DNA from: Thiothrix subterranea
GTDB lineage: Bacteria > Pseudomonadota > Gammaproteobacteria > Thiotrichales > Thiotrichaceae
Reading direction: 5' to 3'
DNA: 64,000 nt
Assembly (NCBI RefSeq): GCF_016772315.1
Contig: NZ_CP053482.1
Span: 1,116,001-1,180,000, forward strand
In this document: positions 45,959 through 59,722 of the stretch, in pieces
Position numbering within the stretch: position 1 is the stretch's first letter
Layout of the letters: each line of letters begins with the position of its first letter
Made by a program: the position numbers and the translations under genes
Notes under the pieces: model-generated
Seen by the model: the letters and a program-made list of their open reading frames with translations, nothing else
Told to the model about the DNA's origin: nothing
The model's database searches: none

Positions 45959-46453
45959 ATGGCAGAGTACAGCTACCAAGCACTCAAAGGCAAGAGCAAA
46001 ACCTTCCGCGCCATGACGGGCATTGATTTGGGTGAATTCACCCAACTGTTGCCCCATTTTCAACGGGCATACACGGCGCAGTTGATTGTTGATGGTCATG
46101 ACAGTGAAACGAAGCGAGGTCGCCCCGGCAATCTGTCAACAATAGAAGATAAGCTATTCTTTATTCTGTATTATTTGAAGACTTACCCGCTGCAAGAAGT
46201 GCTGGGTTACTCGTTCAACTTGTCACAAGGATTAGCGAATCGCTGGATACATCGCCTGTGTCCCGTCTTGCAATCGAGCTTAAAAAGCATGGGGCATTCC
46301 CCCACTCGACTCCCCGAAGAGGTATTGGAACGGCTTACGCATGAAATGCCGCAAGCGCTTGGCTTGGATGCGACCGAACGCCGTATCCAACGCCCCATTG
46401 ACTTTGGGGTTCAGGAGGAATACTACAGTGGCAAAAAAAATTCCATTCGGTGA
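45959..46453 (+). CDS. IS5-like transposase, first frame
   Basis: 164 residues: N-terminal helical DNA-binding part, then the first catalytic Asp (137) in LDATERRIQRP and QEEYYSGKK. The frame ends just after the run GGC-A8-TTCC (about 46431-46438). A -1 slip in the A8 run would continue as KKKFHSVKNNIIAG into the second frame and give a full DDE transposase of about 300 residues. AAGGGAA ribosome site precedes ATG 45959. Confidence 0.88.
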   Translation: MAEYSYQALKGKSKTFRAMTGIDLGEFTQLLPHFQRAYTAQLIVDGHDSETKRGRPGNLSTIEDKLFFILYYLKTYPLQEVLGYSFNLSQGLANRWIHRLCPVLQSSLKSMGHSPTRLPEEVLERLTHEMPQALGLDATERRIQRPIDFGVQEEYYSGKKNSIR

Positions 46454-46866
46454 AGAACAACATAATAGCAGGCTTGGACGATCGTGAAATCAAATACTTA
46501 GGTGAAACACGACGTGGCAAAGATCATGACAAACGTATTGCGGATGAGGAGGGGGTGAAAGTGCCGGAAGGGTATGAGATTTACCGAGATTTGGGCTATC
46601 TTGGGCATAATTCGGGTGACGGGGCAGTTGTCCACCAACCTAAGAAAAAGCCACGGGGTAAACCCTTGAGTGATAAGGATAAAGCGCATAATCGCACTAT
46701 TTCTAGCATTCGGGTGATCATTGAACATGTGAACAGCGGTATCAAACGGTGTCGGTGCGTCAAAGATATTTTCCGCAACTACGTGGAAGACTTTGATGAT
46801 TTAGTGATGGAAATCGCTTGTGGTTTGCATAATTTGCGCACTGCCATACGGATCAAAAACTACTGA
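46450..46866 (+). CDS. IS5-like transposase, second frame (DDE C-terminal part)
   Basis: 138 residues from GTG 46450, carrying the second Asp in GKDHDKRIADEEG and the catalytic Glu in RVIIEHVNSGIKRCR. It corresponds to the DDE_Tnp_4-type C-terminal half. Most likely produced as a fusion by -1 frameshifting and not on its own, since no ribosome site precedes the GTG. Confidence 0.85.
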   Translation: MKNNIIAGLDDREIKYLGETRRGKDHDKRIADEEGVKVPEGYEIYRDLGYLGHNSGDGAVVHQPKKKPRGKPLSDKDKAHNRTISSIRVIIEHVNSGIKRCRCVKDIFRNYVEDFDDLVMEIACGLHNLRTAIRIKNY

Positions 46867-48288
46867 ATTCATTTAACCATCAATAAGTTGAAATTTTGGA
46901 ATAATGTCTACTGTTCCTGCGGTATTCATTTCCTTCAACCTGACTGGCAACCCTATTCCACAATTGGGCTTAGGCTCGACAATGGCGGATGGCAGCGGTA
47001 TTTACATGTTGGATAAATTGGATCAAGTCATCACTGACCTGGGCTTCAAGGCATACACCATGCAGAATGACAGCACCATCAACGTCTTCATGTTAACCAT
47101 GACGCTGATGATCGGTACTGCGGGTCTGCCACACGTTATTATCCGTTTCTTCACGGTAGCCACTGTTAAGGATGCACGTTCTTCTGCGGGTTGGGCATTG
47201 ATCTTCATCGCGTTGTTGTACACCACGGCTCCGGCAGTCGGCGCAATGGCACGTTTGAACTTGGTGAACACCATCCAAACCGGTGAAATCGGTGCGGCTG
47301 ATAGCAACTTGGCAATGGATGCACGTCCACAATGGATGGCAAACTGGGAAAAAACCGGTTTGATCGCATTCCAAGACAAGAACGGCGACGGCAAAATCCA
47401 GTACTACAACGATGGCGCATTAAGCAAAGCACAAGCTGACTTGGGCGCTGCTGAGAAAGCGTTGAAAGAAGCACAGGACAAAGCTGGTGATACCGCAGCC
47501 GCTCAAGCTAAGGTTGACGCTGCTAAGACTGCCGCTGACGCAGCCATGACCAAGTACATGACGGACGAGAAGACCAAAAAGTTTGCTGATCTCGGTTGGA
47601 AAGGTAACGAAGTCACTAAGGTCGACAATGACATCATGGTACTGGCTAACCCAGAAATCGCTCAACTGCCTAACTGGGTTATTGCACTGGTAGCCGCCGG
47701 TGGTATCGCAGCGGCATTGTCTACAGCAGCAGGCTTGTTGTTGGCTATCGCTTCTTCCGTTTCTCATGACTTGATGAAAGGTATTTTCACACCAAACATC
47801 TCTGAAAAGAGCGAATTGATGGCTTCCCGTATCGCGATTACCATCGCTATTATTCTGGCAGGCTATATGGGTATGAACCCACCGGGCTTTGCGGCAGAAG
47901 TCGTGGCCTTGGCGTTTGGTTTGGCGGCATCCTCCATCTTCCCTGTGTTGATGATGGGTATCTTCTCTAAGCGCATGAACACTGCGGGTGCTATCTCCGG
48001 GATGTTAGCGGGTATCGGCTTGACCCTGTTGTACATCTTCTGGTTCAAAGGCTGGTTCTTCATCAAGGGTACAGAAATGGCACCTAACGTTGCAGCTAAC
48101 TGGTTCTTGGGTATCTCCCCTGAAGCGTTTGGTACAGTCGGTGCGATTGCGAACTTCGTGGTTGCATTTGTTGTTTCTCGCTTCACACCAGCGCCACCAG
48201 AGCATATTCAACACTTGGTTGAAGACGTTCGCGTACCACGTGGTGCGGGTGCTGCTACTCACTAAACCGACTCTCCACTCGGTTTGAG

Positions 48289-48360: not shown

Positions 48361-49767
48361 ATGAAATCGACGTTCCCGTTAGCCTGTTTTACCGGACTTC
48401 TTACGTTATTACTGCCCGCGCTCAGTTTCGCCAGTGGCGGCGGCGGTGGTGCTGAAGTGGTTAATCTGACCGCCACCGCATTGGGTTTAACCGCGTTAAT
48501 CCTGTTTGTGTTTGCGTATGGCTTGGTGATTGCGGAAGAACACTTGCACATGCGCAAATCCAAACCCGTTATTGTTGCGGCGGGCATTATCTGGGTGCTG
48601 GTTGCGATTGCGTATACCAGCGCAGGCAGACAAGAACAGATGACTGAAATCCTCAATCACAACCTGCTGGAATACGGGCAGTTGTTCCTGTTCCTGCTCG
48701 CCGCGATGACCTTCATCAATACCTTGGAAGAGCGCAATATGTTTGCGGCGTTACGGTCTTGGTTGGTATCCAAAGGCTTTTCACTGTATTGGATTTTCTG
48801 GATCACCGGGCTGATGGCATTCTTTATTTCACCCATCGCTGATAATTTAACAACGGCGCTGTTGATGGCAGCCGTGCTGATGGCCGTTGCTGCCGACAAG
48901 CCCGCCTTTGTTGCCATGGGCTGTATCAATATCGTGGTGGCTGCCAATGCAGGCGGTGCGTGGAGTCCGTTTGGTGATATTACGACGCTGATGGTGTGGC
49001 AAGCGGGTTTAATAAAATTCCAAGAATTTTTTGCTTTATTCGTGCCTTCAGTGCTCAACTGGCTCGTGCCTGCTTTCATCATGTCGTTTTTCATTGAAAA
49101 AGGAAAACCGGCGGCGATGAAGGATGTGGTGACCATCAAACGTGGCGGTTTCGTGGTGCTGGGTTTGTTTATTGCCACCATTGCAACCGCCGTCATGTTC
49201 CATAATTCACTGCACCTTCCCCCTGTTTTGGGAATGATGACCGGGCTTGGGGTACTGCAAGTATTTGGTTGGTATTTGAAAGTCTCTGACCATGACCCTA
49301 GCAATGATCATGATGAAGGTGTTGGACGTTTCGATATTTACAATCAACTGCAACGTTCCGAGTGGGACACGCTGATGTTCTTCTACGGCGTTATTCTGTG
49401 CGTCGGTGGCTTGGGGGCATTTGGCTACCTCGCGCTGGTTTCCGAAGTGCTGTATACCGATATGGGCGCGACTTGGGCAAATGTGATGATCGGTTTGCTG
49501 TCAGCCGTCGTGGATAATATTCCGGTAATGTTTGCGGTCATTACCATGCACCCCGATATGTCGCACGGGCAATGGTTGTTAGTCACATTGACGGCGGGTG
49601 TGGGTGGTTCGTTGCTGTCGATTGGTTCAGCCGCTGGGGTTGCATTGATGGGTCAGGCACGCGGTGTTTACACATTTATGTCTCACCTGAAATGGACGTG
49701 GGCAGTGGCATTGGGCTACATCGTCAGTATTTACGCGCACTTGTGGATTAATGCGGCGTTGCTATAA
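48361..49767 (+). CDS. nhaD: Sodium:proton antiporter NhaD
   Basis: A 468-residue membrane protein with about 12 hydrophobic helices, a leader (ALSFASGGGGG) and NhaD motifs: FFISPIADNLTTALLMAAVLMAVAADKP, NAGGAWSPFGDITTLMVW and SAVVDNIPVMFAVITMHPDMS. It exports Na+ in exchange for protons. It lies behind the sodium:solute symporter terminator and is transcribed separately. Confidence 0.93.
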   Translation: MKSTFPLACFTGLLTLLLPALSFASGGGGGAEVVNLTATALGLTALILFVFAYGLVIAEEHLHMRKSKPVIVAAGIIWVLVAIAYTSAGRQEQMTEILNHNLLEYGQLFLFLLAAMTFINTLEERNMFAALRSWLVSKGFSLYWIFWITGLMAFFISPIADNLTTALLMAAVLMAVAADKPAFVAMGCINIVVAANAGGAWSPFGDITTLMVWQAGLIKFQEFFALFVPSVLNWLVPAFIMSFFIEKGKPAAMKDVVTIKRGGFVVLGLFIATIATAVMFHNSLHLPPVLGMMTGLGVLQVFGWYLKVSDHDPSNDHDEGVGRFDIYNQLQRSEWDTLMFFYGVILCVGGLGAFGYLALVSEVLYTDMGATWANVMIGLLSAVVDNIPVMFAVITMHPDMSHGQWLLVTLTAGVGGSLLSIGSAAGVALMGQARGVYTFMSHLKWTWAVALGYIVSIYAHLWINAALL

Positions 49768-49922: not shown

Positions 49923-50624
49923 ATGAAAAAAAATCTGCTTATCATCGCTTTATTGGGCTTTGTGCTAAGTGGCTGTAGCCTGTTGCACATTGAAGAACGC
50001 CAAACGATTGCTATCTATGACCGCGCCAACCCCGCCGTTGTCTGTATTCATGCCGAAGAACAAGAGCCGGATGCGTTTGGGGAAATTGCCACGGGTACGG
50101 GTTTCCTTTGGGACGCGAAAGGACATATTGTCACCACGCAGCACTTGGTTTCTGGCTACAAAACGCTGACCGTCAGCTTTGAAGACCAAGGCACACGCCA
50201 AGCCGATGTGGTTAATTCAGACAATGAATACGATTTAGCCGTTTTAAAACTGCGCGATATTACCAACCTACCCGCCCCCGCGCACACCCACAGCAGCAAG
50301 GATTTAAAAGTCGGGCAGCACGTTTACAGCATTAGCAATGCGTTCGACTTAGGCCGCAGTTTCACGTCGGGTATTATTTCCGCGTTAGGGCGCAATTTCG
50401 GCGATCCGCAAACCGGCGGTATCAGCAACTTGATTCAAACCGATGCGGCGATTAATCCCGGCAGTTCCGGCGCACCCTTGCTGGACAGCAGCGGGCGCGT
50501 GATTGGGGTGAATGTTGCGATTTACAGCTTATCCGGTGGGTCAGACGGGATTGGTTTTGCCGTGCCGATGGATGTGGTGCGCCAGATTGTGCCGCGTTTG
50601 ATCAGCGCACCTAAAGTACTGTGA
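49923..50624 (+). CDS. Trypsin-like serine protease lipoprotein (no PDZ)
   Basis: A 233-residue S1C-type protease: lipobox LSGC (Cys18), triad His in VTTQHLVSG, Asp in NEYDLAVLKL and Ser in NPGSSGAPLLDSSG. It lacks the PDZ domain of the relative at 5722-6843, so it is close to a bare protease core tethered to a membrane. Stop overlaps the convergent bufC gene by 14 bp. Confidence 0.88.
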   Translation: MKKNLLIIALLGFVLSGCSLLHIEERQTIAIYDRANPAVVCIHAEEQEPDAFGEIATGTGFLWDAKGHIVTTQHLVSGYKTLTVSFEDQGTRQADVVNSDNEYDLAVLKLRDITNLPAPAHTHSSKDLKVGQHVYSISNAFDLGRSFTSGIISALGRNFGDPQTGGISNLIQTDAAINPGSSGAPLLDSSGRVIGVNVAIYSLSGGSDGIGFAVPMDVVRQIVPRLISAPKVL

Positions 50625-51381
50625 ACGACAATACCCAGCCGCGTTGCACCGCTGTCATCAACAACGCGGGCAATTGCGCCTGAAAACGTTCCGCCAATTC
50701 CGGCAGCTTCTGCGCTTGCTGGATGGCACTGAGAAATTCCCACGCCATTTCATCCAACACCACTTGATGCAAACGCCGCCCCGCTCGCCATACCAATACG
50801 CGCTGGGTCTGGTGGAGTTCAAGTTGTTCCAACGCTACTTTTTCGGGGGAATCTTCCGGCTGATGCGCGAGCCACACCTCATGAACCGCGTAAGCCGACG
50901 TCAATAATTGTGCGGAAGCGGGCAACGCCAACACCAAACACGCTTGTTGCGTCGCATCCAACGTAGCGAGTTGGGAAAAATCCCCCACCGGTTGATTCAC
51001 CGCATTCCACGCCTGATGCCGCGCCCATTCCAAGCGTGCCACATCCGCGATCCACAACATCTGTTGCAAAGCGGGGTGTGCAGCGAGGAAATCGGCAAAC
51101 CCTGCCCCGTATTCCGCCAGAAACGGGCGCGTCGGTGGCTGCTGATCAATGTAACGGTCACTCGCCGCTTCAAAAAATTCCGCCCCCAGCAATTGCTGAC
51201 ACACCGGATATAACGATTCGAGGTATTGCCACAAAATGCCGTGGACGCTGTTGCGGTAAATGCCCACCCGTTGCGCCGCATCGAGTTTGCCATGCGATTT
51301 GACCAGCAACGCCGCCGCGTCACGCTGATCACGGTTAAAAATAGCGGCAATGAAATGCTGTTGCAGTTCAGGCAAAGACAC
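50611..51381 (-). CDS. bufC: Bufferin operon protein BufC (HvfC/DUF2063 family)
   Basis: A 256-residue protein with the DUF2063 N-terminal domain (LPELQQHFIAAIFNRD; VGIYRNSVHGILWQYLESLYPVCQQLLG) and family C-terminal domain. These proteins accompany the DUF692 enzyme and bring the precursor peptide to it. GTG 51381 is chosen, overlapping bufB by 14 bp; the open frame from 51456 would lie further inside bufB. Confidence 0.88.
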   Translation of the reverse strand: MSLPELQQHFIAAIFNRDQRDAAALLVKSHGKLDAAQRVGIYRNSVHGILWQYLESLYPVCQQLLGAEFFEAASDRYIDQQPPTRPFLAEYGAGFADFLAAHPALQQMLWIADVARLEWARHQAWNAVNQPVGDFSQLATLDATQQACLVLALPASAQLLTSAYAVHEVWLAHQPEDSPEKVALEQLELHQTQRVLVWRAGRRLHQVVLDEMAWEFLSAIQQAQKLPELAERFQAQLPALLMTAVQRGWVLSFTVL

Positions 51382-52189
51382 GCGCTTGTACCTCCGCTGC
51401 TTTGGCGGCTTCTGCCAACAAAATGGGCAATTCGGGTACGTTATTGTCCCACTCAATCAAAGTCGGCACTGCACCAAAGCGCTGGATGGCTTGCACATAC
51501 AATGCCCAAACCGCGTCACTGACCGGATAGCCGTGGGTATCGAGCAAATGCGTCCCCCGGTCTTCGTAGCCCGCAAGGTGAATTTCACGCACTCGCTGCA
51601 CCGGAATGGCATTTAAATAAGCCAGTGGGTCAAAATCGTGGTTGCAGGCACTGACGTAGATATTGTTCACATCCAGTAAAATGTCGCAATCCGCCGCTTC
51701 CGCCACCGCGCACAGAAAATCCCATTCGCTCAGCGCCGACTGTTGGTATTGCAGGTAGCTGGAAACGTTTTCGATCACCAGTCGCCGCCCCAACGAGTCT
51801 TGCGCTTGGCGAATGCGTTGGCTGACGTGACGCACCGTTTCTTCGGTATAAGGCAACGGAATCAGGTCGTGCGTAACCAGCCCGTGCACCGATGTCCAGC
51901 ACAAATGGTCGGAAACCCATGCAGGGTTCACCCGCTCCACCAGTGCTTTGACACGGCTAAAATATTCGGTATCCAGCGGATCGGTCGAGCCTAGCGACAT
52001 CCCAACCCCGTGGAAAGTGAGCGGATAATGTTCCGCAATTTCAAACAAATAATCCTGCTGCACACTACCGGGCAGCAGGTAGTTGTCGGTCAAAATCTCC
52101 AGCCAAGGAATGCGCGGCTTGCTATCCGCAATCGTGTCGATATGCTGGAAACGCAAGCCAATACCGCAACCGTTGACTGGATTTGACAT
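51368..52189 (-). CDS. bufB: MNIO-family (DUF692) RiPP-modifying enzyme BufB
   Basis: A 273-residue TIM-barrel DUF692 enzyme: GIGLRFQHI start, LTFHGVGMSLGSTDPLD, WVSDHLCW, RLVIENVSSYLQYQQS, CDILLDVNNIYVSACNH and REIHLAGYEDRG..LLDTHGYPV, whose His/Asp/Glu residues bind the iron ions in this family. It modifies cysteines of the precursor BufA. Follows bufA by 3 bp. Confidence 0.93.
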   Translation of the reverse strand: MSNPVNGCGIGLRFQHIDTIADSKPRIPWLEILTDNYLLPGSVQQDYLFEIAEHYPLTFHGVGMSLGSTDPLDTEYFSRVKALVERVNPAWVSDHLCWTSVHGLVTHDLIPLPYTEETVRHVSQRIRQAQDSLGRRLVIENVSSYLQYQQSALSEWDFLCAVAEAADCDILLDVNNIYVSACNHDFDPLAYLNAIPVQRVREIHLAGYEDRGTHLLDTHGYPVSDAVWALYVQAIQRFGAVPTLIEWDNNVPELPILLAEAAKAAEVQARVFA

Positions 52190-52192
52190 GGT

Positions 52193-52474
52193 TTAGCCTT
52201 TCTTCTCTTCGACGACAACACCGCCCATGATTTTTTCACATGTACCTTTGGGGAGCTTGATCCATTCAGCCGCGTCGCTGTCTACCTTGGCTTGACCTGC
52301 GCACGCATGACCGTTTGCGCCGCAATCATTCATGCCAGCTTTGACGATACCTGAGCATTTTTCCATTTCGACCTTGGCATCTTTGGCATCATCAGCGGCA
52401 TACAATGCGCCAGAGGTTGCAGCCATACCCAGTGCCATCAGTGCTGCTGCCATTACTTGTTTGTTCATGTTCAT
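52193..52474 (-). CDS. bufA1: Bufferin-type RiPP precursor BufA1 (DUF2282)
   Basis: A 93-residue precursor: signal peptide (1-26, ending LYA), then the DUF2282 core EKCSGIVKAGMNDCGANGHACAGQ with three of the four conserved cysteines, and the fourth in LPKGTCEKI. In characterised bufferins these cysteines are converted by the MNIO enzyme and the product binds copper in the periplasm. AAGGAG eight bases before ATG 52474; an ECF-type promoter lies upstream. Confidence 0.93.
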   Translation of the reverse strand: MNMNKQVMAAALMALGMAATSGALYAADDAKDAKVEMEKCSGIVKAGMNDCGANGHACAGQAKVDSDAAEWIKLPKGTCEKIMGGVVVEEKKG

Positions 52475-52548
52475 TGTCTTAACTCCTTAAATATACTAAA
52501 AAATAATCTTCTCTCGTTTACCTGTCAGTCTTGTGTCAGGTATAGGGT

Positions 52549-52577
52549 TATACGGGTCTTGCAGCGGTTTGGATGCA
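52549..52577 (-). promoter_or_regulatory. ECF-sigma promoter of bufABC
   Basis: Minus strand: TGCATCCAA - 15 bases - GTATA. Identical -35-like and -10-like blocks and spacing to the sites before the catalase-like, DGSCGAK lipoprotein and second ECF sigma genes. Confidence 0.85.
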
Positions 52578-52612
52578 AGCCAGCCGTATTTTTTCGGCAT
52601 TCATGCCTTTCA

Positions 52613-53557
52613 TCACATCGGGATACACATCAGATCCTCCGCAACAACAACCTTGCCAGAATAGTGCTTGCCGATGATTTTTAGGCTCTCATCCAGTGGC
52701 TCGATACTCCGTGCCATCAGGTGCGACAGTACAAGCTTTTTCGCCTTAATCGCAGTAGCGAAATCGGCGATCTGGGAGGGCGTTGCATGGAGTCGTTTGG
52801 CGACCGCGTCCGTCGTCTCTTGCGATATGGCAAGGTTGGCCACCAGCAAGTCGGCATCCTGAGCGATCTTTGCCAAGCGCGTATCAAGCGTGGTTTGATC
52901 AGCACTGAATACAATCTTGTATGTTCCAATTTCGATGACATAACCGACCGAAGGCACAGGCCCGTGAGGAACGCCTACTGCGCTGACGCGCACATCACCA
53001 TCAGAAAATACCTGCGTTGCCGTTTCTTTACGGGTATCCACTTCTACAGGCTGGAGTGAAAAAGACCCTGCCTCACCATCAAGGGGTCGCGAAAGATGGA
53101 GGAACCCCGAAAGATAACGGTATGCTCCGGTATCTTTACCAAACATCGCGTTCAGAAAATCGTTTATTCCCGGAAAAAAGCGGTTGCCGGAAGGCCCAGA
53201 AATCGGCAGATTTCGCGTCCTATCGGTGAAGAAACCGCTTTTCATGAGTGCTGGCAAATCCGCCGAGTGATCGGTATGAAAATGGGTGATTGCGATGAGA
53301 TCGAGGTCTTCGATCTTTGCTTTGGCTTCCCCAAAGCGCAAAAAAACACCGCCGCCCGCGTCAATCAGCATGATGGATTTACCATCACGCCAGATCAGAT
53401 TTCCAGAACTCGCCCGCCCATCATCGGCAATCGGTCCACCTGAACCCAATACCTGCACGCCGATGACATCTGGCTGCGCACAGGCGTTGCTGCCCGCATG
53501 GACAGCAGCCGAGCTGGCAATCAGGCAGGTGATTGCGGTAATCAAGAATATTTTCAT
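52613..53557 (-). CDS. Secreted MBL-fold metallohydrolase
   Basis: A 314-residue protein with a signal peptide (1-21, ending VHA) and metallo-beta-lactamase fold of the RNase Z-like branch: THFHTDHSADLPAL (H92, H94, D96, H97), GVPHGPVPSVGYVIE, FSADQT and the late VLSHL motif. Periplasmic substrate unknown. It is 41 bp downstream of the spondin-domain gene, probably in the same transcript. Confidence 0.85.
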   Translation of the reverse strand: MKIFLITAITCLIASSAAVHAGSNACAQPDVIGVQVLGSGGPIADDGRASSGNLIWRDGKSIMLIDAGGGVFLRFGEAKAKIEDLDLIAITHFHTDHSADLPALMKSGFFTDRTRNLPISGPSGNRFFPGINDFLNAMFGKDTGAYRYLSGFLHLSRPLDGEAGSFSLQPVEVDTRKETATQVFSDGDVRVSAVGVPHGPVPSVGYVIEIGTYKIVFSADQTTLDTRLAKIAQDADLLVANLAISQETTDAVAKRLHATPSQIADFATAIKAKKLVLSHLMARSIEPLDESLKIIGKHYSGKVVVAEDLMCIPM

Positions 53558-53598
53558 TTGTAGAATTCCTAGATGGGTTCAAGCGTAACCCTGAAGGC

Positions 53599-54246
53599 TT
53601 AGCGTATACGGCGGATATTCACCAGTGCGACGGGGTTGCGCCAGTCATACTTAACAGCACTCAGATCGCCCTGCCCATGAATGCCGTTATGGACATGAAT
53701 AAAGCCTTCCGCAGCGTCTGTCGCCCGCAGATTGGCAGACCCAGGGCAAGCAGGGCCGGGTACGTGGGTGCATAATTCATTGTTGGCTTCGCTACCCGCG
53801 TCATAGGCAATGGCTACGTGGCTGCCTTGAGGTGAAATCGCATTCAGGGATACAAAAGCATCATTAGTATTGACCAGCATGGAAGCAAGGCTTAGACGGC
53901 TAAGCTTATTACCACCAGACAGTTCATAAGTGGCCGTTTTGCCGGGGGGAATGGGGGCTGTACCCGTGGTCACTTGGGCATTGCTAAACAGACTGGTGAT
54001 TTCCTCTTTCAATAAGTCAGTGCCAGCAGTTTCTGCCAATGTTGCCAATCCGGGAGAAGCTGCCTGCCCCAGTGAAAACAGTTTGTGCTGAGGTGAGTGC
54101 AATACCAGCAACGGTGGGCTAAATACCTGATCTTGGGTTATATTCGTAATTTCCACCTGATAAGTAATTGGTCTATCCGCCATAGCGTAAGGTGCCAAAC
54201 TCAATAAGATACCCGCACTTAAGCATGTTGTGACAGTTTTAGACAT
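53599..54246 (-). CDS. Secreted spondin-domain protein
   Basis: A 215-residue protein with a signal peptide (ending AMA) and a spondin_N-type domain: ITYQVEITNITQDQVFSPPLLVLHS, ASMLVNTNDAFVSLNAIS, and the C-terminal ATDAAEGFIHVHNGIHGQGDL..YDWRNPVALVNI. The domain is found in bacterial exported proteins of unknown role; the conserved acidic/His residues bind metal in eukaryotic relatives. It heads a unit with the MBL-fold gene behind an ECF-type promoter. Confidence 0.82.
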   Translation of the reverse strand: MSKTVTTCLSAGILLSLAPYAMADRPITYQVEITNITQDQVFSPPLLVLHSPQHKLFSLGQAASPGLATLAETAGTDLLKEEITSLFSNAQVTTGTAPIPPGKTATYELSGGNKLSRLSLASMLVNTNDAFVSLNAISPQGSHVAIAYDAGSEANNELCTHVPGPACPGSANLRATDAAEGFIHVHNGIHGQGDLSAVKYDWRNPVALVNIRRIR

Positions 54247-54327
54247 GAACATACAAATACTCCATAACTTCGATTATAAAAAGGCTTTTCACAGGCTATT
54301 AGGAAAAATATTGCCTGTGCCTAATCA

Positions 54328-54356
54328 TTTACGCCTCCGAGCCAGTTATGGATGCA
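54328..54356 (-). promoter_or_regulatory. ECF-sigma promoter of spondin/MBL unit
   Basis: Minus strand: TGCATCCAT - 15 bases - GTAAA, one mismatch in each block from the shared signature, correct spacing. Confidence 0.65.
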
Positions 54357-54399
54357 GAAAAGTCTCCTATGAATAAAATTGTTTCATCTAAAAATAATA

Positions 54400-55107
54400 T
54401 CAGAGCGAAATCATATCACCAGTGAATATTATTTCTCCTGAAGGCGTCGTTGTCTGACTGGAATTTAAAGGCTCCATGCTAATGGCAAATGTACTGGTAT
54501 TATCCAGTTGTTTCCATAACGTCTTATTAATAGGCATTCGGTATTTCCCACCACGTACCAATGTGCCTACTCGAATCGGTAGATCATTGTTTTTAGGGAT
54601 AAGCCAAAAGGTCGGGATCATATTTTCATCTGGTGGCAGCGTTTTACGTGGCATGTCAAATGATATTTCCATCGGTGTCTCTTTAACGACTGCCACGACC
54701 ATCTTATTGGCATGTTCAGTGGATGTCATCAAGGACATATAAGCAGACGGCTGATGCTCAACATTTAAAAAAAGCACGGTCATCACGACTGCCGTGAGCG
54801 AGGAAAACGCGGCAATTGACCAAGGCAGGTAGTTTTTCAAATTCAACGACCACGTTTTTTCATGTTGATTTTTTTGGCTTTTGATCTCTTTGTAGATATT
54901 TTTCCAAATACGTGCCGACGGTTGTTGTGGAGGTAACAAGCCTAATAATGGTGCTGACTTTTGTTGATAAGCAGCCGTTACTTCGCGTAAGTACAGGTGT
55001 TTTTCCATAAGTTTATCAAAGCGTAAGCGGGCTTTGCCTTTTAAGGTTCCCACGACATAAGACATGGCGAGAGGTTCAAAAATATCGGGGTTTCTATAGC
55101 GTTTCAT
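54400..55107 (-). CDS. Anti-sigma factor of ECF pair 1
   Basis: A 235-residue protein: cytoplasmic N-terminal anti-sigma domain (MKRYRNPDIFEPLAMSYVVGTLKGKARLRFDKLM), one transmembrane helix (about 107-127, WSIAAFSSLTAVVMTVLFLN) and a periplasmic RskA-like C-terminal domain (FWLIPKNNDLPIRVG; FAISMEP). No zinc-binding HxxxCxxC motif, so not ChrR-like. ATG 55107 overlaps the sigma gene stop (ATGA), the usual coupled arrangement. Confidence 0.85.
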   Translation of the reverse strand: MKRYRNPDIFEPLAMSYVVGTLKGKARLRFDKLMEKHLYLREVTAAYQQKSAPLLGLLPPQQPSARIWKNIYKEIKSQKNQHEKTWSLNLKNYLPWSIAAFSSLTAVVMTVLFLNVEHQPSAYMSLMTSTEHANKMVVAVVKETPMEISFDMPRKTLPPDENMIPTFWLIPKNNDLPIRVGTLVRGGKYRMPINKTLWKQLDNTSTFAISMEPLNSSQTTTPSGEIIFTGDMISL

Positions 55108-55643
55108 TGGAGGCATCCTCGCAATTGTTCCAAGCCTCGGCGTATCCATGCCTTTACAGTTCCTAAGGGTTTCTTTAGGGTATTCGCAAGTTCTTCATGG
55201 GTTTGCCCATGATAAAATGCACGTAAAACACATTCCCGCTGATCGGGTTTAAGGTGTTCCAAACATTTTAATAGATTACGTACATCGTCTCCTTGTTGGT
55301 ACAAGGTATCGGGTTCAGGTTCTTTAGAAAGAAACTCAAGTGTTTCATACTCCACGTCAGCAAGCTGCGGGCGGCTTTTTGCCTCCCGCAGCTTGTTTAG
55401 CGCTTGGTTGCGCACGATGACCGCCATCCATGTCATGGCATCAGCCTTACTCGCGGTAAATTGTGATGCATGTTTCCAGATTTTAATAAAACCTTCTTGT
55501 AGCACATCTTCCGCCAAGCTGGTATCACGTAATATATACTTGCAGATAGCCAGTAAATTAGGTGAAGATTTTTTATATAATTGTTGAAATGCCTTGATTT
55601 CACCGTGTCCACTGCGGACAAGCAATTCATTCAATAACGTCAT
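55104..55643 (-). CDS. ECF RNA polymerase sigma factor 1
   Basis: A 179-residue ECF sigma: region 2 (LAEDVLQEGFIKIWKHASQFTASKADAMTWMAVIVRNQALNKL) binds the -10 box, region 4 (LKPDQRECVLRAFYHGQTHEELANTLKKPLGTVKAWIRRGLEQL) binds the -35 box. It follows the catalase-like gene by 32 bp and overlaps its anti-sigma gene by 4 bp. Close paralogue of the sigma at 58467-59009. Confidence 0.93.
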   Translation of the reverse strand: MTLLNELLVRSGHGEIKAFQQLYKKSSPNLLAICKYILRDTSLAEDVLQEGFIKIWKHASQFTASKADAMTWMAVIVRNQALNKLREAKSRPQLADVEYETLEFLSKEPEPDTLYQQGDDVRNLLKCLEHLKPDQRECVLRAFYHGQTHEELANTLKKPLGTVKAWIRRGLEQLRGCLQ

Positions 55644-55675
55644 CGTTTTCCTTAAATCTCGTGCTAAATGGAAAA

Positions 55676-56680
55676 TTATTTACCGCTTAGGCGTTTTCCA
55701 AAGGAGACGGCGTAACCGGGTGAGCGGAACAGGAGCACAGGGTCATCGCTTGGCTTAATACCATCAGCCATGATCAGTGGATCAAAGTTGATTTTTTCGC
55801 ATTCAGCCCCTTTTTGTGGCAGTGCTGAAGTAATGCTTAAGGTGCCGACTTTTATTTCTTTGCGTTCCTTTGGCCATAACAAGGTGGGGTTGTTATCGGG
55901 ATCGCCGGGTTCGCCAAGGGTTAGCATCATGTCCCAACGAATCGGACTTTCTTTGGCACGATCAATCAATTTCTGTTCAAGGAAATTGGCAGGTGAAGAC
56001 TTGAGTTCGCTGTCGGTTAGGGATTTTTCGCCATCTTGTGGGACAAAACGCCAGCGTACCGGGGTGGTTTTCTCATCCTTATTGATAAATTTGAAGGTGT
56101 GAATGCCAAAATAGCTACTGTTTGCCCAACTAATCGGTGGGTTGTTTTTTTCCAGAAATTCAGCTTGTGGAAGGCTGTCAGGGTGGCTTGCCTTGAAAGC
56201 TTTAATTTTTTCGGGATCCGGCTTGCCTGTAGCGGGGTCAGGCGTTTTAGCAACGATGTCATCAAGGAAGGTTTGTGGGGTAGCCGCTCCAAATACGGGC
56301 GTGTTGAGCATGGTTATGTGATGAAGATTGTTGTCGGGTAGCTTGAATTCCAAGGCCATGCCCCGTGGATTTTTGGCGGTGTCCGGTATGTTAGGATTAC
56401 CCGTAGGGATGGAGAAGCGGGCAATCACCGGGATGGTTTTGCCTGAAAAGAGTACTGAGCGCGTGTAAGCGGCGGCTTCCGGCAAACCGGTAAAGTCACC
56501 GGTTGCACACGTTCCTTTGGTATGGTTGCGGCGTTCACCGACATGAACACCATACGTTTTTTCCAAGGCGGATACGACTTCATCGGCAGTGACTACTTTT
56601 TCCTCTGCCCAAAGCGGTGTTGTGAAAACTAGCGCTCCGCTGAGTAAGCAGAGTGAAAGTCTTTGCGTTTTGGTGTGCAT
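55676..56680 (-). CDS. Periplasmic catalase-family peroxidase (SrpA-like)
   Basis: A 334-residue member of the small catalase family: signal peptide (1-25, ending LWA), then NHTKGTCATGDFTG, VIARFSIPTGNPNIPDTAKNPRGMALEF and FFGIHTFKF-like segment (YFGIHTFKF). These haem proteins remove peroxides; they lack the large catalase C-terminal parts. First gene of a catalase - ECF sigma - anti-sigma operon. Confidence 0.9.
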   Translation of the reverse strand: MHTKTQRLSLCLLSGALVFTTPLWAEEKVVTADEVVSALEKTYGVHVGERRNHTKGTCATGDFTGLPEAAAYTRSVLFSGKTIPVIARFSIPTGNPNIPDTAKNPRGMALEFKLPDNNLHHITMLNTPVFGAATPQTFLDDIVAKTPDPATGKPDPEKIKAFKASHPDSLPQAEFLEKNNPPISWANSSYFGIHTFKFINKDEKTTPVRWRFVPQDGEKSLTDSELKSSPANFLEQKLIDRAKESPIRWDMMLTLGEPGDPDNNPTLLWPKERKEIKVGTLSITSALPQKGAECEKINFDPLIMADGIKPSDDPVLLFRSPGYAVSFGKRLSGK

Positions 56681-56715
56681 GATATGTCTGGTTCCTGTTG
56701 TGTGAATTCAGGACA

Positions 56716-56744
56716 TATACACACCAATTCGCTTGTTGGATGCA
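56716..56744 (-). promoter_or_regulatory. ECF-sigma promoter of catalase-sigma operon
   Basis: Minus strand: TGCATCCAA - 15 bases - GTATA; exact match to the shared signature, 36 bp before the catalase-like start codon. Confidence 0.85.
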
Positions 56745-56798
56745 AAAAATCAGTAGTACAAGGCAAAATCTAACCATAGGCGTTCATTTCGATCATCT

Positions 56799-56827
56799 CG
56801 CATCCACAACACAACAATCAGCGTACA
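56799..56827 (+). promoter_or_regulatory. ECF-sigma promoter of DUF302 gene
   Basis: CGCATCCAC - 15 bases - GTACA: two mismatches in the first block and one in the second from the shared signature, same spacing, upstream of the gene at 56870 and facing away from the catalase promoter. Confidence 0.6.
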
Positions 56828-56869
56828 AGTTTAAGACTACTGCATGTACCCACAACAAGGATATTCCCC

Positions 56870-57349
56870 GTGAAACCCACTTTGCTGATTTTCCCCCTGA
56901 TGCTGTTCTCACTGGTAGCATTCGCCGACGCTGATGCTGTAAAAACGGTTGCGGCAACCGATATTGTCACTAAAACCAGCCCGTATTCCGTCGCCGAGAC
57001 CATGAACAAGTTCGAGTCCATCGTCAAGACGAAAGGGTTGGAGGTATTTGCCCGCATCGACCACCAGCAAAATGCCAAAGCAGCCGGAATGGAAATGAAC
57101 GCTGCGCAAGTGCTGATTTTCGGCAACCCCAAAACGGGTACTCCCCTGATGCAACAGGATGCAGCAGTGGCACTGGATCTGCCCATGCGGGTAGCCGTGT
57201 ATGCAGACAAGGCTGGGGATGTACATATTGCCTACCACGCACCTGATAGTCTGGCGGTCAATTTTGAGTTGAAAGACAGTGCGGTGCTGCCTCAGTTGGC
57301 GGATGCCCTCAACAAGCTGACTGCCGCAGCCATAACGACAACCCCCTGA
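56870..57349 (+). CDS. Secreted DUF302 protein
   Basis: A 159-residue protein with a signal peptide (1-20, ending AFADADA) and one DUF302 domain: SPYSVAETMNKFESIVKTKGLEVFARIDHQQNA and VLIFGNPKTGTPLMQQDAAVALDLPMRVAVY are diagnostic. Function of the family is unknown; its members often sit beside redox or metal stress genes. Divergent from the catalase-like gene. Confidence 0.88.
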   Translation: MKPTLLIFPLMLFSLVAFADADAVKTVAATDIVTKTSPYSVAETMNKFESIVKTKGLEVFARIDHQQNAKAAGMEMNAAQVLIFGNPKTGTPLMQQDAAVALDLPMRVAVYADKAGDVHIAYHAPDSLAVNFELKDSAVLPQLADALNKLTAAAITTTP

Positions 57350-57446
57350 CACATTGACGGGGAAATAGTTATTTGACCATGATCCGGCGTAGCTGACCCA
57401 ACTGGGCATAAGCCTTTAACTTTTTCCCTAAAAATAGATGTCCGTC

Positions 57447-57475
57447 TGCATCCAAATATCAGGCAAGCGCGTATA
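57447..57475 (+). promoter_or_regulatory. ECF-sigma promoter of the DGSCGAK lipoprotein gene
   Basis: TGCATCCAA - 15 bases - GTATA, an exact match to the shared signature, 34 bp before ATG 57509. Confidence 0.85.
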
Positions 57476-57508
57476 TCCCCCCGAACCAAAACAAAAGGAG
57501 TGTTCACG

Positions 57509-57769
57509 ATGAAATCCAATAAACTTTCCCTTGCCCTGTCTTTGGGTACAGTGCTGATTGCTGGTACTACGCTTGCCGGTTGCGGCAGCAATCCGTTTTC
57601 TGCTGAAAAAGGTGCTGATACCACGATGACCCACACCAAACCGGCGGATGGCAGTTGTGGTGCGAAAAAAGATGGCAGTTGTGGAGCCAAGCAAGACGGC
57701 TCTTGTGGTGCGAAAAAAGACGGTAGCTGCGGTGCCAAACAAGACGGCTCTTGTGGTGCGAAAAAGTAA
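57509..57769 (+). CDS. Lipoprotein with five DGSCGAK repeats
   Basis: An 86-residue lipoprotein: leader with lipobox LAGC (Cys25), a short linker, then five tandem 7-residue units DGSCGAK(K/Q) to the C-terminus, one Cys each. The pattern recalls the Cys/Gly repeats of HvfA-type precursors that are modified by DUF692 enzymes, and the gene shares its promoter type with bufABC. It could equally be an unmodified metal-binding or thiol-buffer protein. AAAGGAG ribosome site, own terminator. Confidence 0.8.
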   Translation: MKSNKLSLALSLGTVLIAGTTLAGCGSNPFSAEKGADTTMTHTKPADGSCGAKKDGSCGAKQDGSCGAKKDGSCGAKQDGSCGAKK

Positions 57770-57794
57770 TCACTAAATTTACTGTGTTAAAACC

Positions 57795-57823
57795 AGAAGG
57801 GCAGCCATTTTGACTGCCCTTCT
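57795..57823. terminator. Bidirectional terminator between lipoprotein and doxX genes
   Basis: AGAAGGGCAG (57795-57804) pairs perfectly with CTGCCCTTCT (57814-57823) between convergent genes. Confidence 0.8.
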
Positions 57824-57844
57824 TCGCGTTATGTCACCGCCAAT

Positions 57845-58309
57845 TTAGCGACTCAAACGACGGGTCAACAGAAAATCCAACGACCACTTGCCGGGGCCAA
57901 ACACGAATACCGTCCAAATCATTGCGCCCCAGAAAACGTGTTGCCAAAAACCACCCGCCCCTTCAATCGTAAACAAATACGGGTAGGCAATGACCGCCAC
58001 CATATTGAACACGAACAGTGCCAACGCCGCTGGGCGAGTCAATAACCCAATTGCCAACAATACCGGCAAGACCAATTCAGCGGCTGTCCCCAGATACGCG
58101 GCTAATTCGGGCGATAGCAGCGGCACGGCATACTCGTCTTCAAACAGATAAAGAGTACTTGACCAACTCTGGATTTTGGTCAAACCGGATGCGAAAAACA
58201 CCCAAGCAACATACAGGCGAAAACCCAGCAAGGTCAGCGGTTTCACAAACCCGTCTAAAGGCCAGCATTCCCCCATCAGAAAACCGGATAATGTAATAGC
58301 TTGTTTCAT
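57845..58309 (-). CDS. DoxX-family membrane protein
   Basis: A 154-residue protein with four transmembrane helices and DoxX motifs (LYVAWVFFASGLTKIQSW; LVLPVLLAIGLLTRPAALAL; VFWGAMIWTVFVFGPGKWSLD). DoxX proteins are regular companions of DUF2282/DUF692/DUF2063 operons; here the gene is separated from bufABC but carries a recognisable promoter of the same type. Confidence 0.88.
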   Translation of the reverse strand: MKQAITLSGFLMGECWPLDGFVKPLTLLGFRLYVAWVFFASGLTKIQSWSSTLYLFEDEYAVPLLSPELAAYLGTAAELVLPVLLAIGLLTRPAALALFVFNMVAVIAYPYLFTIEGAGGFWQHVFWGAMIWTVFVFGPGKWSLDFLLTRRLSR

Positions 58310-58346
58310 CGAGAACTCCTTCGTCCTATTGTGTTAATGATGTCGA

Positions 58347-58375
58347 TATACGCCCCCGTTCGGATAGCAGATGCA
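58347..58375 (-). promoter_or_regulatory. ECF-sigma promoter of doxX
   Basis: Minus strand: TGCATCTGC - 15 bases - GTATA. The first six bases and the second block match exactly, spacing is correct; the last three bases of the first block differ. Confidence 0.65.
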
Positions 58376-58418
58376 GCAAGCCTGAAATCTGTCTACAATC
58401 GGCTTTTCCTGTGTGGCG

Positions 58419-58447
58419 TGCATCCAACAGCAGCCAGCCAACGTATA
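58419..58447 (+). promoter_or_regulatory. ECF-sigma promoter of second sigma gene
   Basis: TGCATCCAA - 15 bases - GTATA, an exact match, 20 bp before ATG 58467; implies positive autoregulation or cross-regulation by the paralogous sigma. Confidence 0.85.
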
Positions 58448-58466
58448 AGAATGCATAAGGAACATC

Positions 58467-59009
58467 ATGGAACCACTGAACGAACTGCTGCAACGCAGCG
58501 GGCAGGGCGATGCAGCCGCCTTCAGGCAACTGTATGACGCGACCTCTCCCCGCTTGTTTGCGCTGTGCAAACGGCTGTTGCGTGACGCGGCACTCGCGGA
58601 AGACGTGTTGCAGGAAGGTTTTATCAAAGTGTGGCATCACGCCGCGCAATTCAGCGCCAGCAAAGCCAGTGCCATGACGTGGATGACCACGATTATACGC
58701 AACCAAGCACTCGATAAACTGCGCCAAGCCCAAAGCCGCCCGACGGTGGTTGATGATGTGGAATACGAATCCCTAGAATTTGCCTCGCTGGAACCAGAGC
58801 CTGATGCGTTGCAACAAATGGGCGAAGATGCCCAGCGGCTGCTGTACTGCTTAGACCAGCTAAAACCGGAACAGCGCGAATGCATTCTGCAAGCCTTTTA
58901 CCACGGGCAAACCCATGATGAGCTGGCGCAATCGTTGGCAAAACCCTTAGGCACGGTGAAAGCGTGGATACGGCGCGGATTGGAACAATTACGGGGGTGC
59001 TTACAATGA
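58467..59009 (+). CDS. ECF RNA polymerase sigma factor 2
   Basis: A 180-residue ECF sigma with region 2 (LAEDVLQEGFIKVWHHAAQFSASKASAMTWMTTIIRNQALDKL) and region 4 (LKPEQRECILQAFYHGQTHDELAQSLAKPLGTVKAWIRRGLEQLRGCLQ), most residues shared with the sigma at 55104-55643. The recognition parts are nearly the same in both, so overlapping promoter use is expected. Overlaps its anti-sigma gene by 4 bp. Confidence 0.93.
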   Translation: MEPLNELLQRSGQGDAAAFRQLYDATSPRLFALCKRLLRDAALAEDVLQEGFIKVWHHAAQFSASKASAMTWMTTIIRNQALDKLRQAQSRPTVVDDVEYESLEFASLEPEPDALQQMGEDAQRLLYCLDQLKPEQRECILQAFYHGQTHDELAQSLAKPLGTVKAWIRRGLEQLRGCLQ

Positions 59010-59722
59010 AGCGTTACCAAAACCCAGACATTTTTGAACACCTCGCGATGTCCTACGCGCTTGGCACCTTGCAGGGCAAAGCACGCCTGCGCTTTGAAAA
59101 ATTGATGCGCAAACACCTCTATCTGCGGGCAGTCACCAACGCTTACCAGCAACAATTTGCGCCATTGGCAACCCTGATCCCCAGTGAAGCGCCACCGGCA
59201 CGGGTGTGGAATGCGATCAGCCAAGAATTGCAGTTAGGCAAACAACCCGCCCTCGCATCCGCTCATTGGTTAACCAAACTGAAAGACTACCTGCCTTGGT
59301 CAATGACAGCGCTTGCCTCGATTGCGGCGGCTGCCATGACCGTGTTATTACTGAACATGAATGTAGAACCTGCGGCTTACATGGCAATGCTCAAGCCACC
59401 TCTACAGCAAGATAAAATGCTGGTAGTAACCGTTTATCATGACACGATGGAAATTGCTTTCAACATGCCCAGCGGCACATTACCTGTGAAAGATGACATG
59501 ATGCCCACCGTATGGTGCATCCCCAAAGACCGCAATAAACCGCTGATGCGCATGGGTACGCTAACTGCGCAAGGTGAAAACCGGATGTCGATTGACAAGG
59601 CAACTTGGAAGGAAATGGCGAATGTCAGCCAATTTGCGATCAGCCTCGAACCGATGGATAAGCCACCCAGCGACAAACCGCAAGGTGAAGTGGTCTTGAG
59701 TGGCGAGCTGGCAGCGCTGTAA
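59006..59722 (+). CDS. Anti-sigma factor of ECF pair 2
   Basis: A 238-residue paralogue of the anti-sigma at 54400-55107: N-terminal MKRYQNPDIFEHLAMSYALGTLQGKARLRFEKLM, one transmembrane helix (about 106-126), and RskA-like periplasmic domain (VWCIPKDRNKPLMRMGTL; FAISLEPMD). ATG 59006 forms ATGA with the sigma stop. The periplasmic domains of the two anti-sigmas differ more than the N-terminal parts, so they may sense different signals. Confidence 0.85.
   Translation: MKRYQNPDIFEHLAMSYALGTLQGKARLRFEKLMRKHLYLRAVTNAYQQQFAPLATLIPSEAPPARVWNAISQELQLGKQPALASAHWLTKLKDYLPWSMTALASIAAAAMTVLLLNMNVEPAAYMAMLKPPLQQDKMLVVTVYHDTMEIAFNMPSGTLPVKDDMMPTVWCIPKDRNKPLMRMGTLTAQGENRMSIDKATWKEMANVSQFAISLEPMDKPPSDKPQGEVVLSGELAAL

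Follow-up and report, generated by a model that had tools for sequence, protein, structure and literature searches.

Copper-binding peptides of the multinuclear non-heme iron-dependent oxidative enzyme (MNIO) type are widespread, and their switch and partners are known in few bacteria. SigE of Neisseria and RpoE2 of Haemophilus are extracytoplasmic function (ECF) sigma factors that control methionine sulfoxide repair (MsrAB) along with a DoxX-MNIO(COG3220)-DUF2063 operon, and induction by hypochlorous acid (HOCl) is RpoE2-dependent (PMC7907618). Caulobacter SigF controls two DUF2282-DUF692-DUF2063 units, one of them with DoxX, and partly sigF itself (PMC3511200), and Brucella BcrS responds to HOCl (PMC8315932). 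In the SigK-RskA pair, a cysteine pair of SigK modulates RskA binding, and its disulfide stabilizes the complex (PMC7509140). Precursors with an EGKCG motif fused to EF hands are described for bufferin/EGKCG clusters, and Lactamase_B_2 genes are reported in another class of MNIO cluster (PMC12452194, PMC13097082 for the former; PMC12452194 for the latter). Compared with these systems here is a locus of Thiothrix subterranea at positions 50611-59722 of a stretch of 64,000 nucleotides (contig NZ_CP053482.1, 1,116,001 to 1,180,000), termed the window, whose coordinates are used throughout.

The locus comprises bufABC, an exported metallo-beta-lactamase (MBL)-fold gene, a spondin gene, an ECF sigma/anti-sigma pair (ECF1), a catalase-like gene, DUF302, a lipoprotein with DGSCGAK repeats, doxX and a second ECF pair (ECF2). 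Seven promoter-like sites stand before these genes. They are very probably promoters read by RNA polymerase with the two ECF sigmas of the locus, and would form one anti-sigma-controlled envelope-stress regulon that includes a distant HvfBC cluster. The genome analyzed has 4.08 Mb, and the comparison within the genus covers 16 genomes; genomes and loci are designated by G and L numbers.

Promoter-like sites in the locus and the genome

The motif TGCATCCAA-N15-GTATA is found at four exact sites and at three with 2, 3 and 3 mismatches, and the gap is 15 bases in all seven. On the minus strand, exact sites precede bufA1-bufB-bufC (52549..52577, 74 bases to the ATG) and the catalase, ECF1 and anti-sigma 1 genes (56716..56744, 35 bases to the start; also in G005). 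The spondin-MBL site on that strand (54328..54356, 75 bases to the start codon) has two mismatches, and the doxX site (58347..58375, 37 bases to the start; also in G005 and G012) has three, with TGCATC and CGTATA exact. On the plus strand, the Cys-repeat lipoprotein has an exact site 24 bases from its GTG (57447..57475; also in G005 and G009), and the ECF2-anti-sigma 2 pair has an exact one of its own, which would be autoregulatory (58419..58447, 19 bases to the start codon); the DUF302 site (56799..56827, 42 bases to a GTG start) has three mismatches. A rescan placed all seven where the preliminary description had put them, each 19-75 bases ahead of a start codon. The fixed 15-base gap that it had also proposed holds at the Thiothrix sites, and relatives have gaps of 14 or 16 as well before the sigma gene.

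The strict core TGCATC-N18-GTATA occurs five times in the whole genome, and all five copies lie in one 5.9-kb stretch of the locus. The expectation for independent, identically distributed bases is 1.9, the reversed-pattern control gives none, and the chance of all five falling in the locus under uniform placement is ~2e-11. A genome-wide scan for copies inside genes had been suggested beforehand; the strict core is nowhere outside the locus. With at most one mismatch, TGCATC-N17-CGTATA has 21 sites, six in the locus and 15 outside it, against two for the reversed control. Seven of the outside sites lie within an open reading frame (ORF) of at least 100 amino acids, three have no called ORF and five have an ORF starting downstream. 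The core has 57 matches in the 16 genomes of the genus, against six for the reversed pattern (summed by hand), and when the spacer of TGCATCC-N12..22-GTATA is left free, N17 accounts for 30 of 85 matches, the next commonest length for 13 (hand count).

Within the window, the count at up to three mismatches is 12, a slight excess over the mean of 6.04 in shuffled sequence (12 being reached in 2 of 100 shuffles), and weak sites of the window therefore need other support. This unremarkable count is what would speak for a chance or compositional origin of the entire pattern. Such an origin is contradicted by the genome-wide scan, the spacer test and, from the comparison of relatives given below, the upstream-region test and the family scan; it was ruled out on the scans and the spacer test, and its probability is negligible.

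Association with the sigma family in relatives

A matrix was built from the seven window sites and used to scan 160 bases upstream of genes, with the spacer allowed to vary by +/-1. A site at p <= 0.01 is present in 32 of 33 regions that lie ahead of this sigma family's genes or operons and span Thiothrix, Thiolinea, Leucothrix, Cocleimonas, other Thiotrichaceae and two Burkholderiales metagenome-assembled genomes (MAGs). The sole exception is L. pacifica, with p 0.025. A first cross-genus test with a fixed spacer had given 19 of 32 regions at the same threshold, the added row being the G005 catalase promoter. Among control ORFs (at least 200 amino acids, 19 loci), four of 244 score at least 12, and these are bufB, two anti-sigma genes and one other.

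A scan for the family pattern TGCATCYAA-N13..15-CGTATA gives 41 matches in 28 of 63 genomes against one for the reversed pattern. Eighteen of the 29 sites read stand before a sigma gene; one more (L261), listed without an ORF, is the sigma site of the second contig of G009. In the genus, ten of the 12 genomes that have the anti-sigma show a strict match, and none of the four that do not (Fisher p 0.008); in G004, which has no anti-sigma, there is a sigma homolog at 52%, and the bufA1 site scores 19.0. With the window included, 12 of 13 bufA1-like genes have a site scoring at least 18.6 at 67-89 bases upstream, and 7 of 14 doxX-like genes score at least 16. The behavior of the motif is that of an ECF promoter belonging to this sigma family.

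The two conserved blocks could also be half-sites of a transcription-factor operator, for instance for a copper or oxidant regulator, and there are many copper regulators that act close to genes of this kind. The blocks nonetheless form no inverted repeat, are oriented toward the gene in the window sites and have near-fixed spacing, and the motif accompanies the sigma family; an operator is thus very improbable. The layout also fits that of an ECF promoter (PMC5507510).

A narrower regulon of bufferin, DoxX, lipoprotein, catalase and ECF2, with the spondin and DUF302 sites as chance matches, deserves more weight and is still judged unlikely. The long form has 294 genome matches at up to three mismatches and its reversed pattern 139, so that mismatch counts alone prove little for these two sites, and spondin is known in such a setting from two genomes only. 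On the other side, the spondin site is kept in G005, where 1 of 15 motif positions is changed against 4 of 14 in the spacer, and three of four other DUF302 genes (two copies in G009, one in G028) are preceded by sites scoring 17.0-18.8.

Over 22 ortholog comparisons 14 of 330 positions are changed in the motif against 100 of 308 in the spacer, which speaks for constraint on the motif; the figure is partly circular because the sites of relatives were mostly found by the motif, and its rows are related sequences. Several observations weigh against a single regulon tied to this sigma family. Outside the 33 regions stand L125, L127 and L128, where no sigma ORF was called, the G004 homolog and a truncated sigma of G003, which has no site (upstream score only 6.0); two weaker sigma-like ORFs of G009 are also siteless (7.5 and 5.7). 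The bufA1 gene of G035 and the DUF302 gene of G015 score just 10.4 each, and the remaining seven of 14 doxX-like genes are without a good site, several of them within the buf block. The loci read are a hand-picked subset of genus motif matches and anti-sigma matches; among 17 picked for a motif match, eight have other genes or none downstream, and nine have a redox gene, a gene for a ribosomally synthesized and post-translationally modified peptide (RiPP), DUF302 or a sigma gene. Finally, only two genomes have the ECF1-catalase-spondin-MBL block next to this sigma. Among 274 genomes of the class, the present one included, 47 have a spondin homolog and 72 a catalase homolog; 30 loci of each were examined, and in none of the 58 besides the window (29 each) does our ECF or anti-sigma lie within ~1.5 kb. 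A conserved ECF-spondin or ECF-catalase module was rejected on this count, and the block is a local addition.

Nine of twelve wider stretches around such loci were read, with L233, L234 and L238 left out. At three loci of other gammaproteobacteria (L227, L235, L237) spondin adjoins a response regulator and a histidine kinase, an arrangement that looks two-component-like by eye. A 60% catalase-like homolog is also found at L227, and at L237 an ORF resembling part of another, different sigma factor lies ~2.6 kb from spondin (by eye).

Regulon members beyond the locus

The regulon is larger than the locus and reaches a distant HvfBC-type RiPP cluster. At this second locus (L162), a one-mismatch site lies 59 bases ahead of a gene for an EGKCG/EF-hand precursor, which is followed by genes of the HvfB and HvfC families, both above cut-off (401.7 bits against 360 and 295.4 bits against 142). 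The precursor displays EF hands and is below the cut-off of the HvfA model (19.4 against 95 bits). Because this cluster has a site too, the two MNIO genes that were found in this genome are both in gene runs behind the motif. Two of the five outside sites with a downstream ORF are taken seriously as regulon members. A one-mismatch site is also found 27 bases ahead of a flavin amine oxidase gene upstream of a cfa-like gene (by eye), a single-genome lead; this operon is a candidate target shared with the RpoE-ChrR type.

In relatives, the genes behind the motif include those for DsbC-like, MsrA, MsrB, CcdA/DsbD, thioredoxin-like and HvfA-like proteins, and further DUF302, DUF3047, DUF6969 and a pyridine-nucleotide oxidoreductase. 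Two genomes of another genus (L112, L113) have the exact core ahead of a DUF6969 gene. In G009, a second ECF2/anti-sigma pair is found on contig C1 (151 kb; L065-L068), together with bufABC, a BufA2-family cluster, and DUF302 and HvfA-like genes; several of these have the motif. The chromosomal bufB of this genome is split into two ORFs ~1.9 kb apart (L064 2137-4885), and an intact bufB is on the second contig (L066).

Sigma pairs and their sensors

ECF1 (55104..55643, minus strand) and ECF2 (58467..59009, plus strand) share the residue at 127 of 180 aligned positions, including all of the last 22, at the end of region 4. Both have sigma regions 2 and 4 only and an adjacent anti-sigma gene, with the ORFs overlapping in both pairs, as is characteristic of ECF sigmas. 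ECF2 is SigK-like (PDB 4nqw, SigK, E 7e-30), and in the 4nqw alignment (numbering by hand) its C128/C178 stand opposite C133/C183, the redox pair of SigK; C127/C177 of ECF1 match the same pair through the ECF1-ECF2 alignment. The NCBIfam SigK model NF007228 is not reached, ECF1, the only sigma scanned with it, giving 124.4 bits against a cut-off of 226. Anti-sigma 1 (54400..55113, minus strand) and anti-sigma 2 (59006..59722, plus strand; 39.7 bits against a cut-off of 29.4) are membrane proteins of the RskA type with an RskA_C domain (PF10099) above cut-off in both. From their sequences, both pairs are predicted to be SigK-RskA-like only, not SigK proper. An ECF11/ChrR system as reader of the motif was rejected, as the genome has no match to the ChrR model TIGR02451. 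In G003, the ECF2 ORF (L099 9671-10051) lacks the counterpart of the first 54 residues, and its anti-sigma ORF matches over the full length.

Only ECF2 might read the motif, with ECF1 using a different promoter and being merely a target of ECF2, which would make a cascade instead of a two-sensor regulon. In the tree ECF1 is on its own long branch, near the Thiothrix ECF2 proteins (open fork), and among the loci read only those of G000 and G005 have it. An ECF1-type pair is absent from ten of the 12 genomes of the genus that have the anti-sigma family, yet eight of those ten carry the strict motif. The identical end of region 4 and the overall identity of the two sigmas speak against a cascade, which is considered somewhat unlikely.

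The periplasmic halves of the anti-sigmas are rich in methionine, with 9 Met in 119 residues and no Cys in anti-sigma 1 and 12 Met in 120 with one Cys in anti-sigma 2. Over 39 homologs the mean Met content is 7.7% in the periplasmic half and 2.3% in the cytoplasmic half; in 36 long ORFs of the window, some perhaps not genes, it is 2.9%. A single periplasmic Cys is present in 35 of the 39 and none in both copies of anti-sigma 1 and in the two Burkholderiales proteins; the Burkholderiales proteins are also Met-poor. The anti-sigmas may sense by oxidation of Met or Cys, or by copper binding.

Other genes of the locus

The minus strand displays the features of a bufferin 1 cluster, a four-Cys DUF2282 precursor, a BufB-type MNIO and a DUF2063 partner. 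These are bufA1 (52193..52474), encoding an exported bufferin precursor (PF10048, 78.6 bits; Cys 40, 51, 58 and 79), the MNIO maturase gene bufB (51368..52189; NF050167, 374.1 bits against a cut-off of 310) and bufC (50611..51456; PF09836, 79.3 bits, HvfC model below cut-off). The exported MBL-fold hydrolase (52613..53557; PF12706) and the exported spondin-domain protein (53599..54252; NF038123, 125.6 bits against a cut-off of 40) are encoded on the same strand, and as the best upstream motif score of the MBL-fold gene is 6.7, with no good site, it is presumably cotranscribed with spondin. An exported catalase-like protein (55676..56680; PF00199, 128.3 bits, signal peptide by eye) is encoded by the gene that opens the presumed ECF1 operon, and a doxX/hvfX-like gene (57845..58309; PF07681, 68.9 bits, NF050144 below cut-off) completes this strand. 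The exported DUF302 protein (56870..57349; PF03625) is encoded on the plus strand.

The lipoprotein gene (57500..57769, plus strand) encodes five DGSCGAK repeats with Cys at 28 (lipobox), 53, 61, 69, 77 and 85. The product has no Pfam or NCBIfam match and does not reach the HvfA or KCG-repeat models, Ser-Cys replacing Lys-Cys. Related proteins grade from EGKCG through DGKCG to DGSCG, and the G005 ortholog is divergent from the gene of an HvfB-family MNIO (402.5 bits against a cut-off of 360), and the gap that they share holds a site for each of the two. As judged from sequence, the lipoprotein is possibly a variant MNIO substrate resembling HvfA-type RiPP precursors.

Further upstream, two overlapping ORFs at 45959-46866 resemble transposase pieces (by eye) just before a symporter ORF at 46904, whose odd N-terminus could reflect an insertion (by eye). 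An NhaD-type antiporter gene (48361-49767 in the window) is found a few kb from the ECF pair in several genera (L101, L136, L142, L144).

Proposed function and comparison with known systems

The preliminary description had proposed that the bufferin locus and the redox and exported proteins belong to a single ECF-type regulon. This remains the best reading, with the core confined to the locus and the sites tracking the sigma family; binding by the sigmas, use of the sites by both, the inducer and the operons are what we infer from it. Each sigma would probably be held by its own RskA-type membrane anti-sigma until oxidant or copper damage to the envelope causes its release. The freed sigma would then transcribe its own operon and that of the other sigma, ECF1 being behind the catalase promoter, along with the genes for the putative copper-binding bufferin, the DGSCG-repeat lipoprotein, DoxX, the exported catalase-like protein, DUF302, spondin and MBL, and the distant HvfBC-type RiPP cluster. 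A bolder and rather doubtful version is a two-sensor alarm, in which the paralogous SigK-like sigmas share the promoter and amplify each other while their RskA-type anti-sigmas sense different damage, and in which the regulon's DGSCG-repeat protein is a lipid-anchored copper-binding RiPP modified in trans by the same-promoter MNIO 0.94 Mb away.

One sharply defined promoter ties two kinds of MNIO cluster to an exported catalase-like protein, and in relatives the same promoter ties in methionine-sulfoxide and disulfide repair. With this promoter shared by catalase-like and repair genes, it is therefore argued that the peptides are part of the control of oxidative damage in the envelope and not of copper handling alone. 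DUF302, spondin, DUF6969 and the DGSCG lipoprotein become testable members of one response. New in the literature searched are this sigma family as the driver of bufferin and of HvfA-type clusters, the second pair of paralogous sensors, and the catalase-like, DUF302, spondin and DGSCG-lipoprotein members. The earlier division into known and new holds in that spondin, DUF302 and this sigma family were not found with bufferins among the papers listed from that literature; bufferin, DoxX and sigma together are already published (PMC12452194, PMC3511200).

Bufferin and EGKCG (HvfA/fontiphorin) clusters likewise hold MNIO, DUF2063, DUF2282, DoxX and sigma genes (PMC12452194, PMC13097082), and spondin, catalase and DUF302 do not occur in the main text of PMC12452194. 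As in SigK-RskA, the closest solved sigma (PDB 4nqw), the cysteine pair, RskA_C and autoregulation are present (PMC7509140); the targets, the Met-rich periplasmic half and the score below the NCBIfam SigK model set the present pairs apart. The promoter of the RpoE/ChrR-like PSPTO_1043, TGATCC-N16-CGTA, resembles the present layout, with the spacing counted by hand (PMC5507510). Like Caulobacter SigF and Brucella BcrS, the sigmas would serve a small ECF regulon, but the promoters of those two, GTAACC-N16-CGAA and (T/C)GTAAC-N17-CGAA, differ from TGCATCCAA-N15-GTATA, which is not of the SigF type (PMC3511200, PMC8315932), and the negative regulator of Caulobacter is of the DUF1109 type and not the RskA type (PMC3511200). 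As with Neisseria SigE and Haemophilus RpoE2, an ECF sigma is tied to MNIO-DUF2063-DoxX genes; their HrsE, however, is a 67-residue ZAS peptide, in contrast to the membrane RskA-type anti-sigmas here (PMC7907618), and msr genes are seen under the present motif in relatives only. The present system would work like SigE, RpoE2 and SigF, but with another type of anti-sigma and another promoter.

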